Part shown: one piece after another, positions 1,455-22,269 of the stretch
Layout: the number at the start of each line of letters is the position of its first letter
Position numbering within the stretch: the stretch's first letter is position 1
Origin: a virus
IMG/VR virus record: IMGVR_UViG_3300023116_000392
Coordinates: 1 to 22,269 of that record
Reading direction: 5' to 3' (one strand)
Length of the DNA stretch: 22,269 nucleotides
The notes under the pieces: model-generated
The model's input: only the letters and a program-made list of their open reading frames with translations
The model's database searches: none
Told to the model about the DNA's origin: nothing
Made by a program: the position numbers and the translations under genes

Positions 1455-1622
1455 ATGGCTAACAGAGAATCTTACAATATATACCGTAATGGGAGTAAGA
1501 TTTACACGAACTTGACACAGGGCGAATATTTCGATATCATGGAGGACCTGTCGATTGAATACTATCAGACAGGTTCTCCAAGTCCTGAAGACTTATACAC
1601 TGAAATTACCTCGGAGGATTAA
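1455..1622 (+). CDS. Small conserved cyanophage-type protein, unknown function
   Basis: 55 residues beginning MANRESYNIYRNGSKIYTNL and ending in an acidic tail (EDLYTEITSED). I chose ATG 1455 rather than the longer frame from 1377 because 1455 lies 1 nt after the glycosyltransferase stop, and because the upstream extension would overlap that gene and reads as an out-of-frame shadow. The MANRExYxIYRNG start with 'LTxxEYFxxMEDLxxxYYxTGxPxP' resembles short hypothetical proteins I recall from several cyanophages. The composition is aromatic and acidic with no transmembrane segment. Probably co-transcribed with the genes on either side. No function can be assigned. Confidence 0.8.
   Translation: MANRESYNIYRNGSKIYTNLTQGEYFDIMEDLSIEYYQTGSPSPEDLYTEITSED
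1613..1617 (+). promoter_or_regulatory. Shine-Dalgarno GGAGG for the 45-aa basic protein
   Basis: GGAGG lies 7 nt before ATG 1625, inside the last codons of the preceding gene. It is the clearest ribosome binding site in the left part of the window and supports this short frame as a real gene, since most neighbours lack an obvious site. Confidence 0.7.
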
Positions 1623-1624
1623 TT

Positions 1625-1762
1625 ATGGCTATGCGTAAAGGTGGCGGTTATGTGGAGGGTGCTCCTAAGAAAACTCGTCAGGGAACAGGGATGAATACAA
1701 AGTATGCAGCGTCTTCTCGCAATAAAGCTAAGAAGAAGTATCGCGGGCAAGGTAAAGGTTAA
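1625..1762 (+). CDS. 45-aa very basic conserved phage protein
   Basis: The product starts MAMRKGGGYVEGAPKKTRQG and ends SRNKAKKKYRGQGKG: 45 residues, about one third Lys/Arg with many Gly, and few acidic residues. It has a strong GGAGG site 7 nt upstream and its stop lies 4 nt before a terminator hairpin, so it is the last gene of the sigma70-driven cassette. I recall very similar short proteins ('APKKTRQG...KYAASSRNKxKKxYRGQG') in many T4-like cyanophages, without assigned function. The charge suggests binding to nucleic acid or to an acidic capsid or ribosomal partner. The RxKKKYRGQGK tail looks ribosomal-protein-like, but no homology is claimed. Confidence 0.8.
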   Translation: MAMRKGGGYVEGAPKKTRQGTGMNTKYAASSRNKAKKKYRGQGKG

Positions 1763-1766
1763 TATT

Positions 1767-1789
1767 AAGACCCTACGGGGTCTTTTTTA
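1767..1789 (+). terminator. Intrinsic terminator with a TACG tetraloop
   Basis: The stem AAGACCC (1767-1773) pairs with GGGTCTT (1778-1784) around the loop TACG, a stable UNCG-type tetraloop closed by C-G. It is followed directly by a T-run (1783-1788). It ends the sigma70-driven cassette and insulates it from the late promoter that begins 6 nt later. Confidence 0.92.
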
Positions 1790-1794
1790 ATGGA

Positions 1795-1802
1795 AATAAA
1801 TA
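1795..1802 (+). promoter_or_regulatory. T4-type late promoter AATAAATA
   Basis: AATAAATA differs from the T4 late consensus TATAAATA at one position. It stands alone without a -35, directly after a terminator and before a gene, as expected for sigma-gp55 promoters. The predicted start is near 1808, giving a leader of about 53 nt before ATG 1861. Confidence 0.75.
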
Positions 1803-1808
1803 GTCTTA

Positions 1809-1855
1809 AGGGATAGCAACCCCTCTAAAAGTTCTGATTTCATGCAAATCAGGAG
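1809..1855 (+). promoter_or_regulatory. Structured leader with a partly hidden Shine-Dalgarno
   Basis: Two hairpins fit the predicted late leader. AGGG (1809-1812) can pair with CCCT (1821-1824) at its extreme 5' end. CTGATTT (1834-1840) pairs perfectly with AAATCAG (1846-1852) around CATGC. The 3' arm of the second hairpin overlaps AGGAG (1851-1855), the ribosome site 5 nt before ATG 1861, and the stem may extend by a G-U and a U-A pair into it. This could dampen or time translation of the 83-aa protein. Confidence 0.6.
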
Positions 1856-1860
1856 CTAAA

Positions 1861-2112
1861 ATGGGACAATCACCTGTCGATAGAAACACTGAATATATGA
1901 GAGAGATGTGGGGAACCACTAAACTCATCTCAGATTATGGATCAATGCAACATAATGACCAAAAAAGAGTTCTGACAGAGGTGATGCACGATACTGCACC
2001 TCGTCATGATCTTAAAAAACAGACTGAATTACACGAAAAAATTCGTAATGACAATGATTATGATGATTGGGAGTATGGAACTGAGCCAAATTATGGTAAT
2101 CCTTGGATTTGA
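1861..2112 (+). CDS. 83-aa late protein, unknown function
   Basis: The product begins MGQSPVDRNTEYMREMWGTT and ends in an acidic, aromatic tail (NDYDDWEYG..NYGNPWI). It is hydrophilic and probably helical in the middle (DQKRVLTEVMHDTAPRHDLKKQTELHEKI), with no signal peptide or membrane segment. It has its own late promoter, a structured leader and an AGGAG site, and lies directly before gp25. Its timing should therefore be late and its role structural or assembly-related. Similar short proteins sit before gp25 in other cyanophages as far as I recall, but none has a function I can name. It could be a small baseplate or head decoration protein, or an assembly factor; this is inference from position only. 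Confidence 0.8.
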   Translation: MGQSPVDRNTEYMREMWGTTKLISDYGSMQHNDQKRVLTEVMHDTAPRHDLKKQTELHEKIRNDNDYDDWEYGTEPNYGNPWI

Positions 2113-2113
2113 A

Positions 2114-2121
2114 CATAAATA
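2114..2121 (+). promoter_or_regulatory. T4-type late promoter CATAAATA
   Basis: CATAAATA has one mismatch to TATAAATA. It begins 2 nt after the preceding stop codon and lies 23 nt before the gp25 start. The predicted start is near 2127. It is the likely entry point for the gp25-gp6-giant gene transcript. Confidence 0.78.
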
Positions 2122-2123
2122 AA

Positions 2124-2142
2124 GTCAAGAAAACTTCTTGAC
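2124..2142 (+). promoter_or_regulatory. Perfect 8-bp hairpin abutting the gp25 start codon
   Basis: GTCAAGAA (2124-2131) pairs perfectly with TTCTTGAC (2135-2142) around AAC, and ATG follows 2 nt later with no Shine-Dalgarno. The hairpin overlaps the predicted late start (~2127). A readthrough transcript would fold it fully, while a late transcript would lose the first bases of its 5' arm. This is the arrangement used by some T4 genes to restrict translation to late mRNA. Confidence 0.6.
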
Positions 2143-2144
2143 CA

Positions 2145-2546
2145 ATGGCAGTCACAAGGATATCAAGAGCATTTAAGGACATAAGTCTGTCTTTTGACCC
2201 ACACCCTGTGACAAAAGACCTTCCAATTCTTAAAAATGAGAATGCAATTCGTCGTTCAGTAAGGAATTTGGTCGAAACAATCCCAACAGAGCGTTATTTT
2301 AACCCTCTTTTGGGGTCTGATGTTCGATCAAGTCTCTTTGAATTCGTTGATTTTGGTACTGCATCCGAAATTGAGTCACAAATAGTGACTACTATTGAGA
2401 ATTTTGAACCAAGAGTGACAAATATCCGTGTTGATGTCAATCCTCAACCCGATGATAACACTTTTGAGGTCACAATTTTCTTTGATATTATCGGTCAAGA
2501 CTTTCCTGCTCAAGAATTTACGTTTTTACTAGAGGCAACCAGATAA
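2145..2546 (+). CDS. 25: gp25-like baseplate wedge protein
   Basis: 133 residues, essentially the length of T4 gp25 (132). The GPW_gp25 domain covers about residues 20-115. Its hallmark is KNENAIRRSVRNLVETIPTE at 30-49 followed by RYFNPLLGSDVRSSLFEF, the region that joins the wedge to the hub and sheath end. A strand-rich C-terminal half (TNIRVDVNPQPDDNTFEVTI) completes the fold. gp25 is the conserved sheath-initiating wedge component shared with contractile injection systems. It lies first in the wedge operon, 3 nt before gp6, under the late promoter at 2114. The start is fixed by the short spacing and full family length. Confidence 0.97.
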   Translation: MAVTRISRAFKDISLSFDPHPVTKDLPILKNENAIRRSVRNLVETIPTERYFNPLLGSDVRSSLFEFVDFGTASEIESQIVTTIENFEPRVTNIRVDVNPQPDDNTFEVTIFFDIIGQDFPAQEFTFLLEATR

Positions 2547-2549
2547 ACA

Positions 2550-4427
2550 ATGCCTTTTACCAAATATACAAACCTCGATTTTGACCAGATAAAGACCTCT
2601 ATCAAGGATTATCTCCGTGCAAACTCAAATTTCACGGATTTTGACTTTGAGGGGTCTAATTTTTCTGTCTTAATCGACACTTTAGCGTATAATACCTATA
2701 TTACGGCATTTAACTCGAATATGATTGTCAATGAATCCTTCTTGGATTCGGCAACATTGAGAGAAAATGTCGTTTCATTGGCAAGAAATATAGGATATGT
2801 ACCACGCTCTAGAAGCGCCTCTAAGGCAACTATAGATTTAGACGTAGAACTGAATGAAGATGCCTCAACATTGACCTTAGAAGCGGGTTTAGCGTGTGTA
2901 GGATCGGTATCTGACAGCAACTATGTCTTCTCAGTCCCAGAAAATATTACAACAACGGTAAATTCTAAAAAAGCAATATTTTCGAGCATCGATATCTATC
3001 AAGGATCCTTCGTAAGAAATTCTTTCGTCGTTGATGGATCACTAGATCAAAGATTTATTCTCAATAATTCATTCATCGACACCTCAACAATATCTGTTTA
3101 TGTAAAGGGAATCAATGATTCTGGACTAGGAAGACAATATAAACTTGTTGATAATATATTAAACTTAAATTCTTCTTCTGAAATTTACTTGATTCAAGAA
3201 GTTCAGGATGAGAAGTATGAATTATTCTTTGGTGATGGATATTTCGGTAAAAAGTTGGAAAATGGAGCAGTAATAACAGTTACGTATATTGTCACTGATG
3301 GAATTGAAGGCAATGGCGCATCAGATTTCTCATTCTCTGGAAGACTGACAAATTCATTGGGCAATATACCCAGTGTAAAAACAATATCAGTTTCTACAAT
3401 AAACAGTTCCTCCAATGGTGGAGAAATTGAAAGCGTTGACTCGATTAAATACTTTGCTCCAAGATTATATTCTTCACAATATAGAGCAGTCACTACCCGT
3501 GACTATGAATCTATCATTCAAATGATATATCCAAATACGGAGTCTGTATCTGTTGTTGGTGGTGAAGAATTAGATCCTCCACAGTTTGGAAATGTATTGA
3601 TTAGTATTAAACCAAAAAATGGAGATTATATTTCAGATTTTGATAAGGACAACATTACTTCAAAATTAAAAAAATATTCTGTTTCTGGAATCAATCAGCA
3701 AATTATTGATCTGAAGGTTCTTTACGTTGAAGTTGACACGGCAGTTTACTATAATAGCGCAGGTGTTTCAAATGTCAACGATTTGAAGACAAATATTATC
3801 ACCACTTTGAATACTTTTGCACGTTCTAATGTCAATATGTTTGGTGGAAGATTTAAATACAGCAAATTGTGCCAAACGATTGATAACGTTGATAATGCTA
3901 TCACATCAAATATTACTAGAATTAAAATTAGAAGAAATTTAAGAGCATCAATTAACCAGGCAACACAGTATGAGATTTGTTTTGGAAATAAATTCCATGT
4001 GAATAGTGGCGGTTTTAATATTAAGAGTACAGGATTTACTCTTGCCGGAAGAATAGGAACATTCTATTTCACAGATGTTCCTGGGACAAATGGAACTGGT
4101 GTTTTATCCATTGTTAAAGAATCTACTATTGAAGGCAAATATATTATAGAAATTAAATCGGCGGGAACAGTAGATTATGATAGAGGTGAGATTATAATTA
4201 ATACCTTGAATATTACATCAACTGAAAAGGATAATAATGTTATTGAGATTCAGGCATTCCCAGAGTCTAATGATGTCATCGGTCTGAAGGATCTTTATTT
4301 AAGTTTCTCAGTTGCCGATAGCAAGATAAATATGGTTAAGGATACTATTACATCTGGAGAACAGATATCCGGTGTCGGATATAAGACAACTTCTAGCTAC
4401 TTAAACGGAGAACTAAAGAGGGTATAA
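2550..4427 (+). CDS. 6: gp6-like baseplate wedge protein (Baseplate_J type)
   Basis: 625 residues (T4 gp6 is ~660). The N-terminal part (MPFTKYTNLDFDQIKTSIKD, then the helical 'LIDTLAYNTYITAFNSNMIVNESFLDSATLRENVVSLARNIGY') is the diagnostic gp6/Baseplate_J start. Around 224-255 comes LFFGDGYFGKKLENGAVI leading to 'YIVTDGIEGNG', and around 313-360 'TTRDYESIIQMIYPN' with 'VVGGEE..PPQFGNVLISIKPK', both Baseplate_J hallmarks. A C-terminal domain (~500-625) has the 'GTVDYDRGEIII' strand pair. gp6 forms the dimeric ring linking adjacent wedges and is the core of the baseplate iris. It is followed after 1 nt by the giant gene, so the two are probably translationally coupled and made in related amounts. 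Confidence 0.97.
   Translation: MPFTKYTNLDFDQIKTSIKDYLRANSNFTDFDFEGSNFSVLIDTLAYNTYITAFNSNMIVNESFLDSATLRENVVSLARNIGYVPRSRSASKATIDLDVELNEDASTLTLEAGLACVGSVSDSNYVFSVPENITTTVNSKKAIFSSIDIYQGSFVRNSFVVDGSLDQRFILNNSFIDTSTISVYVKGINDSGLGRQYKLVDNILNLNSSSEIYLIQEVQDEKYELFFGDGYFGKKLENGAVITVTYIVTDGIEGNGASDFSFSGRLTNSLGNIPSVKTISVSTINSSSNGGEIESVDSIKYFAPRLYSSQYRAVTTRDYESIIQMIYPNTESVSVVGGEELDPPQFGNVLISIKPKNGDYISDFDKDNITSKLKKYSVSGINQQIIDLKVLYVEVDTAVYYNSAGVSNVNDLKTNIITTLNTFARSNVNMFGGRFKYSKLCQTIDNVDNAITSNITRIKIRRNLRASINQATQYEICFGNKFHVNSGGFNIKSTGFTLAGRIGTFYFTDVPGTNGTGVLSIVKESTIEGKYIIEIKSAGTVDYDRGEIIINTLNITSTEKDNNVIEIQAFPESNDVIGLKDLYLSFSVADSKINMVKDTITSGEQISGVGYKTTSSYLNGELKRV
4417..4422 (+). promoter_or_regulatory. Shine-Dalgarno AGAGGG for the giant gene
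   Basis: AGAGGG lies 6 nt before ATG 4429, within the last codons of gp6. It supports this start and, with the 1-nt gap, suggests coupled translation of gp6 and the giant protein. Confidence 0.65.
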
Positions 4428-16332: not shown

Positions 16333-17877
16333 ATGGCGGCAATTGTAACAGATCAGTTTAGAATATTAAACGCTAGTAACTTTTTAGATTCAGTTAATGA
16401 TGCTTCTAATTCATATTATGTTTTTGTAGGTCTACCAAATCCAAAATCATCTGGATTTGGTAGAGATGCTGATTGGGATACCAATACACCAATACCAACA
16501 GATAATGATGAATATTTGAATTTTGTTGGTAGTGTTTCCATGTATGGAAAAAAAGTAACTTCTTCTAATGTAAGAAGACTAGCAAGAAAAATTGATTGGA
16601 ATAGTGGAACTCGATACGAAATGTATCGTCATGATTATAGCATAAACAATTTGTCACCACTGACAAAATCTTCTAGACTTTATGATTCAAACTATTATGT
16701 TGTAAATAGTGAATATAAAGTATACGTATGTATAGATAACGGTTCATCAGGAATCAATACACTTGGTAATGCATCTTTGGATGAACCCGCGTTTACAGAT
16801 TTGGAACCATCCAAGGCTGGTCAAAGTGGCGATGGATATGTATGGAAATATCTTTACAGTATTTCGCCATCAGATATCATCAAATTTGATTCTACCGAGT
16901 ATATTACTCTACCAAATGATTGGAGCACATCAACAAATACGCAAATATCTGCAGTTAGAGATAATGCAAACTCGGATGATAATGATAATCAAATAAAGAA
17001 AGTATATATTGAAGATCAAGGAGTTGGATACTCAACCGGATCTCATGAACTTGATATAATTGGTGATGGATCTGGAGCCAAAGTTGTTGTTGATGTTGAT
17101 ACATCAGGAAGAATAACAAATACTTTAGTATCTGCTGGCGGAAAAAATTATACTTATGGAATAGTTGATTTGGGTTCAATTAGCAATACAGTATCTGTAA
17201 ATGCAAAATTAATCCCAATAATTCCACCATCCAAAGGTCATGGATATGACCTATACAAGGAACTTGGATCGGATAAAGTATTACTATATGCTAGATTTGA
17301 TGATTCAACAAAAGATTTCCCAACGGATACTTCACTGTCACAAATTGGTGTAGTGAAAAATCCAACATCAATTGGATCAACTCAAATATTTACTGATAAT
17401 CAATATTCATCGTTGGGAGCATTAAAATTCTTAAGTGTAACAGGCACACCAAGTGTTGGAGATGTCATTTCTCAGTCTGTCACTAATGGAACTGCTAAGG
17501 CATATGTTGCTTCATATGATAGTGAAACTAAGGTTGTAAAATACTTCCAAGAAAGAAGTTTATTCTTGAATCAAACAACATACGATACTACTGACTATGT
17601 TGGTGTATCTACGGATGCTTATTCATATGAATTTGAATCAACTACAAATAATGTAACATCATCAACTTTCGTTGGAACAATTGACACCGGGTTTACCGGT
17701 ATCACAACAAATCCAACTGGAAACAAAGTAATTTCTTTAGGATCAGTATTTACAAATGGAATTGCTTCTCCTGAGATAAATAAAGGGTCGGGAGATATAA
17801 TTTATCTTGATAATCGCCCAGTGATCCCTAGGAATTCTAGACAAAAAGAAGACGTTAAAATTATCCTGGAATTTTAA
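16333..17877 (+). CDS. 8: gp8-like baseplate wedge protein with inserted modules
   Basis: 514 residues against 334 in T4 gp8. The N-terminus (AAIVTDQFRILNASNFLDSV) corresponds to T4 'AIVTSKFRTEKMLNFYNSI'. ARKIDWNSGTRYEMYRHDYS matches 'IPRRDWGDTRYPDPYTFRIND', GDGYVWKYLYSI (166-177) matches 'GDGYVWEYLFEI', and IYLDNRPVI near 490-498 matches 'IYMENRPPI'. The family end 'KEDVKIILEF' is present. gp8 is a dimeric wedge protein that joins gp7 and gp10 in T4. The extra length comes mainly from residues ~217-290, two GxGY-type beads like those of the giant protein (DQGVGYSTG; GGKNYTYG), and from ~370-465, a 'GDVISQSVTNGTAKAYV' module. It starts 19 nt after a perfect late promoter and is followed after 3 nt by the next gene. 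No strong Shine-Dalgarno is visible. Confidence 0.92.
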   Translation: MAAIVTDQFRILNASNFLDSVNDASNSYYVFVGLPNPKSSGFGRDADWDTNTPIPTDNDEYLNFVGSVSMYGKKVTSSNVRRLARKIDWNSGTRYEMYRHDYSINNLSPLTKSSRLYDSNYYVVNSEYKVYVCIDNGSSGINTLGNASLDEPAFTDLEPSKAGQSGDGYVWKYLYSISPSDIIKFDSTEYITLPNDWSTSTNTQISAVRDNANSDDNDNQIKKVYIEDQGVGYSTGSHELDIIGDGSGAKVVVDVDTSGRITNTLVSAGGKNYTYGIVDLGSISNTVSVNAKLIPIIPPSKGHGYDLYKELGSDKVLLYARFDDSTKDFPTDTSLSQIGVVKNPTSIGSTQIFTDNQYSSLGALKFLSVTGTPSVGDVISQSVTNGTAKAYVASYDSETKVVKYFQERSLFLNQTTYDTTDYVGVSTDAYSYEFESTTNNVTSSTFVGTIDTGFTGITTNPTGNKVISLGSVFTNGIASPEINKGSGDIIYLDNRPVIPRNSRQKEDVKIILEF

Positions 17878-20800: not shown

Positions 20801-22269
20801 GAGATGTATACACAGTAAACTCTTATTCCGATGAGAGATATACTAATGATATTCCACTATTGGGTGACGGAACAAGATCATCTGATACTTTAGATTTTAG
20901 ACCTCGTGTAGCACCAATTAGTGGAATAGCAACAATCTCACCTTTCCACTTTGATAGTAGATCTTTTGAAGTGGCAGGAACAACTCCAACACATATTGTA
21001 AAACCAGAGGAAAGTGCTCTTGTTGGATATGATTTCTATCTCCCAAGAATTGATAAAGTAGTTCTTGATAAATCTGGAATTTTCAGCGTTATCAAAGGTG
21101 CTTCTAGCAGAAATCCAAAACCTCCAGTGAATGTGGAAGAGGCAATGGATATTGCTACTTTAGAATATCCAGCATATTTGTTTAATACTGATGATGTAAA
21201 AATCACTCTTGTAGATAATAGAAGATATACTATGAGAGATATTGGAAAACTTGAAGATAGAATTGAAAATCTTGAAGTTTTAACTTCTCTTTCACTTTTG
21301 GAACTTAATACAAAAACATTACAAATAACTGATTTTGATGGTCTTGATAGATTCAAGAGTGGATTTTTTGTAGATGATTTTAAAGATCCTTCCAGATTAG
21401 ATGTTGATTTGTCAAAATCTGATATAGATTCTGATAATCAGGAGTTAATGTCTCCATTAGATTTTTATACTCTAAAACCAGAAATATCAGTCGATCCATC
21501 AATTGATGTTAATACTGCCGACTTTAGCACAAATTTAAAACTTTTAGATCCAAATGTCCAAAAGACTGGAGATTTGATTACTCTCAAATATGAAGAAAAG
21601 GGTTGGATTGAACAACCTCTTGCTTCTAGAGTTGAGAATGTAAACCCATTCAACATGATTGAGTTTATTGGTAGAATCCAATTAAATCCAGCATCTGACA
21701 ATTGGGTAAGAAACGTTTACATTGATGGGGGAACTAGATCGGAAATTGGAAATTGGAATGGAACATATATTGAAACGATTAAAATTTCTAGCAAACCAGA
21801 TCCTTATATCCGCTCAAGAAACGTAACATTTGTTAGTGGTGGATTAAAACCATTAACAAGATACTATCCATTCTTTGATGGTTCATCCGGTCTTGAAATT
21901 ATTCCAAAATTAATTGAAATTGCAATGGTATCTGGATCTTTCCAGGTAGGAGAAACTGTTAGGGGATATCATGGATCTACTAACTTATTTACTGCAAGAA
22001 TAATTCAACCAAATCACAAAACAGGAACATACAATAGTCCAACAACAACAATATCGCTGAATCCATATGATAAGGCTGTCACACTACCAACATCATATTC
22101 AGCATCATCAACTGTTTTAAATATTGATACGGAATCTTTGTCGGATGAAGTAATTGGGAAGTATAATGGATACATTACCATTGGAATGACTTTGCTTGGT
22201 GAAACAAGTGGTGCTCAGGCAACAATAACAAACAATAGATTAATTACAGATACATTTGGGGATGTTGGA
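17881..22269 (+). CDS. DUF4815-type large tail/baseplate protein (3' end beyond window)
   Basis: The frame is open from ATG 17881 to the window edge, giving at least 1,463 residues; I read it through without a stop. Residues ~12-66 (YYDDFDKNDNFYRVLFKPGH, then 'PIQARELTALQSILQNQVE') are the hallmark of DUF4815, a domain of large virion proteins in T4-like marine phages. 'LDFRPRV' occurs near 1004, 'NPFNMIEFIGRIQL' near 1255, and 'DPYIRSRNVTFVSGGLKPL' with 'YYPFFDG' at 1307-1334, a combination common in cyanophage tail and fibre proteins. Short 'GxxSGAxGxxV' modules recur near 488 and 1443. It stands where T4 has gp9/gp10, so a peripheral wedge, pin or fibre-attachment role is the best guess. 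It starts 3 nt after gp8, so it should share the late promoter at 16307. Confidence 0.87.
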   Translation, partial: MPQKTNLNISPYYDDFDKNDNFYRVLFKPGHPIQARELTALQSILQNQVESFGSHMFKEGSMVIPGNINYDSEYYSVKINQEHLGIDVTVYADYLVGKRIRGAASDIVAVVDKYLTPEDSDDITDVTLFVKYLSSGTGNNISYFEDGEILITDESFTYGNTTISSGDTVASLIAQNACYRGSSASVGEGVYFIRGTFVQVSSDKLVLDPYSSFPSYRVGLSIYEELVTAKDDPSLYDNAKGFSNYSAPGADRLKIYTKLSKKSLDDYNDKNFVELLRVDNGEIKKLQNKSEYSIIRDYFAKRTYEESGDYSVGKFDIEVKESLNNNLSNGGVFTSSQSTEQGNTPSDDLACVKVSPGKAYVRGYDIESVGTTILDVEKPRDKETVSQSLIPFEFGTLLRVNNVSGSPFIGLNNNYNTVKLYNQRKSSTSSGTGNLIGEARIYSFSLTDAAYVDATTEWDLYLFDVQTYTTIVINTFTDISKSSLIRGESSGATGYTVSNSTGNVITLTQTSGSFIPNERLTVSGRTDLNLAISPSTTSITSYGVEDIKSVYQDSTSLSSELKVDFGADTVLQRKLPKGFGIADNISITAAGNVTSPGKNFSDIKVGSIIRYQTSGLSTESYNRVTSVSADGSSMIVSGVPGVSGVCHGPLPSGTVTVPFSIGYPEVKNSGGLYSKLSSDNISSVNLSGSNITINSQLREQTTDVNGRTTLSIPTGITSAFFETFDPERYSVFYADGSIEDLTSDQFTLSSDGTSVTLSGLTPSQSSNVTVNVTLRKNGIRNRKKEYTRSSKIVVNKNISGFSTSLSGLTTSTVYGLRVEDKEISLNTPDVVKVIAIHESYDSNPSTLDSLSFPSGLGLDTNSILGEKIIGRDSNAIGQIVTRSSATSVEFVYLNSNDFIPGETVVFEESNIITTIQTITIGNYQDITNKFNLDKGHKDQYYDYSRIVRKNNQYIPSHQLLVIFDHYTVPSDDNGDVYTVNSYSDERYTNDIPLLGDGTRSSDTLDFRPRVAPISGIATISPFHFDSRSFEVAGTTPTHIVKPEESALVGYDFYLPRIDKVVLDKSGIFSVIKGASSRNPKPPVNVEEAMDIATLEYPAYLFNTDDVKITLVDNRRYTMRDIGKLEDRIENLEVLTSLSLLELNTKTLQITDFDGLDRFKSGFFVDDFKDPSRLDVDLSKSDIDSDNQELMSPLDFYTLKPEISVDPSIDVNTADFSTNLKLLDPNVQKTGDLITLKYEEKGWIEQPLASRVENVNPFNMIEFIGRIQLNPASDNWVRNVYIDGGTRSEIGNWNGTYIETIKISSKPDPYIRSRNVTFVSGGLKPLTRYYPFFDGSSGLEIIPKLIEIAMVSGSFQVGETVRGYHGSTNLFTARIIQPNHKTGTYNSPTTTISLNPYDKAVTLPTSYSASSTVLNIDTESLSDEVIGKYNGYITIGMTLLGETSGAQATITNNRLITDTFGDVG

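Follow-up and report, generated by a model that had tools for sequence, protein, structure and literature searches.

A promoter-anchored hairpin before gp25 and a candidate late-leader translation gate at uvsW in cyanophages

Cyanophages very probably share the late-hairpin design of phage T4, and uvsW is the gene at which it is conserved. We base this view on an excess of promoter-adjacent hairpins in a survey of late leaders, on the preponderance of G·U over A·C in their stems, and on covariation at uvsW; taken together, a late-leader mechanism in cyanophages, above all at uvsW, appears well supported by sequence. A hairpin of the same layout precedes gp25 in a 22,269-base virus record (the window, by which we mean the whole stretch analyzed). 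At gp25 the mechanism is possible but not conserved, and we give an even chance to the reading that this hairpin is an instance, specific to its lineage, of the promoter-anchored late-leader type. Among named relatives, S-SKS1 and S-SRM01, both T4-like Synechococcus phages, cover positions 1500 to 3000 best, and gp25, gp6, and gp8 of the window match baseplate wedge families. The features are collected in Table 1.

Table 1. Features of the gp25 leader and the region upstream of it
Feature	Position	Strand	Basis
Terminator-like hairpin, which would limit readthrough	1767-1784	+	Consensus match only
Second late promoter, AATAAATA	1795-1802	+	Sequence reading
Small gene flanked by late promoters	1861-2112	+	phrog_1414 match, weak (E 3.1e-05); function unknown
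Late promoter (T4 gp55 type), CATAAATA	2114-2121	+	Sequence reading
Hairpin 5' arm, GTCAAGAA	2124-2131	+	Sequence and folding
Predicted late transcription start	2127	+	Inferred from the T4 -13/-6 rule
Leader core, AGAAA	2128-2132	+	Alignment of 34 gp25 leaders
Hairpin loop, AAC	2132-2134	+	Sequence and folding
Hairpin 3' arm, TTCTTGAC	2135-2142	+	Sequence and folding
gp25, baseplate wedge subunit	2145-2546	+	Match to phrog_261, E 4.2e-54

The late promoter CATAAATA starts directly after the stop codon of the upstream gene, the 5' arm of the hairpin begins 2 nt 3' of the promoter, and the 3' arm is followed by CA and then by the gp25 ATG. The initial annotation had described a perfect 8-bp stem at 2124-2142, 2 nt short of the ATG of a gene without a Shine-Dalgarno sequence. 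Reading of the sequence bears this out: no GGAG- or AGGA-like motif was seen by eye in the 20 nt 5' of the ATG. The hairpin folds at -8.1 kcal/mol, compared to -1.76 (SD, 1.58) for shuffled sequences, and none of 200 shuffles was as stable. T4 late promoters are described as spanning -13 to -6 (PMC1524935); by this rule, the late start is predicted to lie inside the 5' arm, as the annotation had proposed, and three of the eight stem pairs would therefore be lost from late RNA. Folding agrees with the further proposal that readthrough RNA carries the full hairpin and late RNA a shortened one. For RNA begun at 2127 the hairpin is not the best fold, and opening the region from -10 to +6 of gp25 costs 10.3 kcal/mol on upstream RNA versus 6.6 kcal/mol on late RNA, both being model values for naked RNA. 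The gp25 start would thus be harder to open on upstream RNA than on RNA started at 2127, so the yield of gp25 would be expected to be lower from upstream RNA than from transcripts begun at the gp25 promoter. An intrinsic terminator on the plus strand was considered and rejected, as the stem is followed by CAATGG with no U run and is absent from the plus-strand terminator-like sites.

Inverted repeats of this kind are not rare at the scale of the window, which holds 5 perfect ones (arms of at least 8, loops of 3 to 8) against a mean of 5.0 in 60 shuffles; at the gp25 spot, however, the hairpin is unusual. When only the spacer was shuffled and the promoter and start were left intact, a fold at least as good arose in 1.0% of 300 trials; for the spacer and ATG alone, with the spacer shuffled, it arose in none of 300. 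No further copy of the exact hairpin pattern was found in this 22,269-base fragment. Rfam returned no matches in the window and six loci, and none above the gathering score for 1600-2300. Elsewhere in the window, the gp8 gene contains a perfect inverted repeat of 13 bp, with a loop of 8 nt, at 16431-16464.

Which RNA would enter gp25 from upstream bears on the proposal that the hairpin keeps the gene silent on early readthrough RNA. Given the terminator-like hairpin and the second late promoter in Table 1, upstream RNA entering gp25 is likely to be late, or early RNA that has passed the putative terminator; the early part of the proposal is therefore doubtful, and late RNA reading through into gp25 would likely originate at the predicted second late promoter. 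The leader of the small gene downstream of it (1809-1857) contains a pair of small hairpins in which the loop region GATAGCAAC is almost invariant and AAAAGTTCTG is invariant; the second hairpin pairs across the AGGAG preceding the ATG. An alignment of 25 chosen relatives gave 15 consensus pairs, 3 of them with changes on both sides, and there was no Rfam match to 1809-1857, which may possibly be a new structured leader. Farther upstream, positions 239-350 look GC-rich against AT-rich surroundings and include a terminator-like hairpin at 239-261.

Conservation of the gp25 stem was examined in the best 80 loci among the matches listed, to which three named phages and the window were added; after L073 and L075 were dropped, 82 sequences with an upstream TAAATA remained, comprising 41 distinct leaders. 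Among these matches, a perfect stem of at least 8 bp is present in 2 of the 41 leaders (5 of the 82 sequences, the window included): one shared by the window and L005, and one of 9 bp in L010, L012, and L013. Two further leaders among the matches listed, representing six sequences, have a 6-bp stem. L006, the nearest relative besides L005 among the matches listed, has gp25 DNA that is 89.1% identical and a stem of 4 bp, while L010, with its 9-bp stem, is 83.6% identical. For the 41 leaders among the matches listed, shuffle p values averaged 0.50 when the promoter was included and 0.45 for the spacer only, and spacer-only folds averaged -1.57 versus -0.56 when shuffled. One leader, that of L053, has a different hairpin in which the promoter pairs with the start (p 0.003).

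Thirty-four of the 41 leaders were aligned (L003, L044, L053, L054, L059, L082, and L083 were omitted as short or diverged). Paired cells made up 62.3%, compared to 34.5 to 51.7% when slid and 58.1% when shuffled (2/500 shuffles); double-change cells numbered 13 versus 7.5 (10/500), and covariation was 0.139 versus 0.108 (16/500). Pairs changed on both sides (144/500) and pair types (87/500) were not above chance in these 34 leaders, and RNAalifold found no consensus pair for the gp25 leaders. The right-arm GAC occurs in 17 of the 34 and the left GTC in 7, with both in 6. The covariation is thus a weak signal, in related sequences, and conservation of the stem was rejected on the strength of this weakness, the 2-of-41 count among the matches listed, and the lack of such a stem in L006. 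What is invariant in all 34 is the ATAAATA, the GAAA at 2129-2132, and the ATG; an A precedes the GAAA core in at least 90% of them, and the spacing is 21 to 23 nt in 33 of the 41 leaders among the matches listed. The difference in opening cost between upstream and late RNA averaged 1.7 over a chosen set of 33 gp25 loci (L005 included, window excluded), reaching at least 3 in 7 of them.

This pattern of conservation, in which promoter, GAAA core, and spacing are kept and the stem is not, is what would be expected if the leader is maintained for its promoter, A-rich core, and spacing, and a purine run and a following pyrimidine run pair by chance. We regard such an incidental stem as quite plausible, if somewhat short of an even chance. 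The match between the observed and expected numbers of repeats in the window also favors it. Against it, the probability of such a fold at this position is about 1% or less; stems of 8 to 9 bp occur in two distinct gp25 leaders and a different hairpin in a third, L053; and other late leaders show an excess of hairpins in the same place, as described below. The gp25 hairpin is a patchy instance of the design, perhaps functional and perhaps incidental. If functional, it would have a modest effect and be under weak selection at most, given that the stem is missing from most relatives; we know of no cost of early gp25 production.

The wider occurrence of late-leader hairpins was assessed in a survey of 409 loci (4.56 Mb), the partly overlapping top 80 of each scan among the matches listed, which yielded 588 distinct ATAAATA leaders in 82 single-linkage protein clusters. 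With thresholds set in the course of the analysis and a fixed 25-nt window, 80 of the 588 leaders among the matches listed had a hairpin beginning 0 to 3 nt past the ATAAATA, compared to 21.0 when shuffled. The excess persisted when clusters were weighted (10.3 versus 3.7 of 82) and when the uvsW and gp22 clusters were removed (41/510 versus 17.6). Control ATAAATA sites that do not precede an open reading frame showed 9/315 versus 8.0, and starts without a late promoter showed a smaller excess (84/2176 versus 43.6). With one leader per cluster, perfect stems of at least 7 bp numbered 5.83 versus 0.48 in shuffles, and where a perfect stem of at least 6 bp was present, it began 0 to 2 nt from the promoter in 44 of 56 leaders. 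For gp25, 5 of 43 leaders in the survey had a hairpin at offset 0 to 3 versus 0.84 expected, a contrast that is overstated owing to the relatedness of these leaders. A hairpin is absent from most late leaders: in S-SRM01, where some late leaders have one directly 3' of the promoter, 11 of 82 reached p ≤ 0.05, and the mean p was 0.69.

When G·T and A·C were scored alike in the stems, they numbered 41 and 12, respectively, versus 178 and 148 in shuffles. This excess of G·T points to structure in the plus-strand RNA, and it disfavors the suggestion that the gp25 hairpin serves as a terminator for an antisense RNA. That suggestion stems from a minus-strand terminator-like site, in which the hairpin is followed by TTTATTTATG; besides the G·U asymmetry, the window contains no minus-strand open reading frame longer than 106 aa, and we consider an antisense terminator extremely improbable.

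The clusters with promoter-adjacent hairpins, identified from family matches of one member each, include uvsW, the gp22 scaffold, tail sheath, portal, speD, and a homing endonuclease. The speD (adenosylmethionine decarboxylase) leaders, in L031 and others, have an AATTTTT..AAAAATT-type hairpin directly after the promoter and far from the ATG. Hairpins of 8 to 10 bp lie between late promoter and ATG in L086 (~22216-22246), L183, and L357; the L086 gene matches homing endonucleases, and the L183 and L357 proteins form one cluster that appears HNH-like by eye, a situation resembling that of the T4 homing endonucleases. A product annotated as "terminase large subunit" in the S-SRM01 record MW015081.1 (L085, 40001-42178) matches tail sheath (phrog_23, E 2.9e-124). 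Since the sheath and speD hairpins sit away from the ATG, it seems unlikely that all of these hairpins have one role. That distance, with the tie to the promoter, could instead suggest a 5'-end stem-loop that stabilizes late RNA. At gp25, however, with the predicted +1 six nt past the promoter, the 5' arm would be partly missing and the hairpin is not the best fold, and we judge stabilization to be very unlikely there.

The survey pointed to uvsW, and this gene was chosen for further analysis on that account. Of the best 80 loci among the matches listed, 77 had a leader that could be used, and these comprised 60 distinct leaders; 39 of the 60 fold at -5 kcal/mol or better, and 21 have no strong hairpin. 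In most of the leaders among the matches listed (L410-L489), a covarying hairpin fills the space between promoter and ATG, and GGAG occurs in 4 of the 60 distinct leaders. Covariation was analyzed in the 24 of the 60 that share one length (23 nt), in which the modeled stem runs from the end of the promoter to 2 nt before the ATG. Paired cells reached 89.8%, compared to 33.3 to 49.5% when slid and 74.7% when shuffled; double-change cells numbered 35 versus 14.8, and covariation was 0.568 versus 0.288, with 0 of 500 shuffles in all three cases. Pairs changed on both sides (315/500) and pair types (182/500) were not above shuffles in these 24 leaders. The stem thus appears clearly to be kept by compensatory changes. 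The upstream-minus-late opening cost averaged 4.2 over the 60 leaders among the matches listed and was at least 3 in 35 of them. The uvsW leader hairpin is, in our view, a strong candidate for a gate on translation that cyanophages have conserved.

Ten named cyanophages were also read. In S-SKS1, P-SSM2, and Sf-CH5, a TAAATA lies 21 to 22 nt before uvsW and the leader folds at -9.8 to -11.0 kcal/mol; the S-SRM01 hairpin is weaker (-3.5 kcal/mol, p 0.05), and ACG-2014f has one (-16.2) but lacks a TAAATA in 60 nt. In the other five (S-CAM9, S-PRM1, S-SCSM2R, DSL-LC03, and S-T4), uvsW overlaps or abuts the preceding gene (labeled UvsY in three of the five) and has no TAAATA within 50 nt; folding energies for the same stretch are -4.8 to -6.5. 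In T4, uvsW and uvsY are on opposite strands; in S-SRM01, S-SKS1, P-SSM2, and Sf-CH5, uvsW is on the same strand as uvsY and downstream of it, directly or past one to three small genes. With this gene order, readthrough could make UvsW too early, and a late-leader gate would fit it. T4 UvsW is described as being expressed from a late promoter and as unwinding origin R-loops (PMC3016281); the hairpin could plausibly delay a helicase potentially harmful to early replication. An upstream uvsY did not mark the uvsW leaders with hairpins: it was found for 26 of the 39 leaders with a strong hairpin and for 13 of the other 21, a count in which some loci had too little upstream DNA to judge.

Thus, the idea that a late gene is kept silent as in T4 seems to hold elsewhere in cyanophages, best at uvsW, as judged from sequence evidence, while the gp25 stem that gave rise to it is rare. 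We propose that the promoter-anchored design has been selected at uvsW and is over-represented in other cyanophage late leaders. More tentatively, it may represent a general timing gate in cyanophages, acting mostly without Shine-Dalgarno sequences, in which a post-promoter hairpin shuts the start on readthrough RNA and late initiation opens it; uvsW would be the conserved case, gp22, tail sheath, portal, speD, and homing-endonuclease genes further cases, and gp25 a recent functional gain. We hold this broader version to be possible, though rather doubtful. If true, T4-style late-gene timing would extend to abundant marine phages and would work at starts that often lack a Shine-Dalgarno sequence, with uvsW as a concrete conserved case of a late-leader hairpin. 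Our literature search, which left most subscription papers outside its coverage, found no paper on a cyanophage late-leader hairpin and no mapped late starts in cyanophages.

Among known systems, T4 gene 25 offers a contrasting use of a hairpin directly before the start of the same gene. That hairpin is described as aiding translation by shortening the distance between the Shine-Dalgarno sequence and the start, and it is reportedly absent from distant phages (PMC3014915). A similar enhancer at gp25 of the window, drawing a distant Shine-Dalgarno sequence near the start, is suggested by the identity of the gene. In T4, however, the Shine-Dalgarno sequence lies 5' of the hairpin and translation is promoted, whereas in the window that place is taken by the late promoter, which would be absent from late RNA, and no Shine-Dalgarno sequence is seen; an enhancer is accordingly a most remote prospect. 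The promoter-anchored gate has closer parallels in T4 e, soc, 49, and I-TevI, where helices are described as silencing the genes on upstream RNA and, for gene e, the 5' strand of the helix is encoded by the late promoter region (PMC3014915). The initial annotation was right about the geometry and about this resemblance: as in e, soc, and 49, late RNA is predicted to lack the 5' part, and the start region may be shut on upstream RNA; as in the gene e and I-TevI type, the gp25 5' arm spans the predicted +1. The helices of e, soc, and 49 cover the Shine-Dalgarno sequence and/or the AUG, and that of gene e was tested experimentally; silencing at gp25 is a possibility, and there the stem stops 2 nt short of the AUG, no Shine-Dalgarno sequence is present, and the stem is rare in relatives. 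Arrangements similar to these have been described for I-TevII, I-TevIII, segB, and mobE (PMC2988022). In I-TevI, I-TevII, I-TevIII, segB, and Aeh1 mobE, the late promoter is said to be sited such that the structure is unable to form in late RNA (PMC2988022), as would be the case at gp25. The T4 segB leader hairpin also begins directly after the promoter, and an S-SRM01 homing-endonuclease gene has the same layout as gp25, although gp25, unlike the genes behind these hairpins, is structural. Finally, the gp25 stem differs from that of cyanophage uvsW in not being kept by compensatory changes and resembles it in lying between late promoter and ATG and ending 2 nt short of the start.
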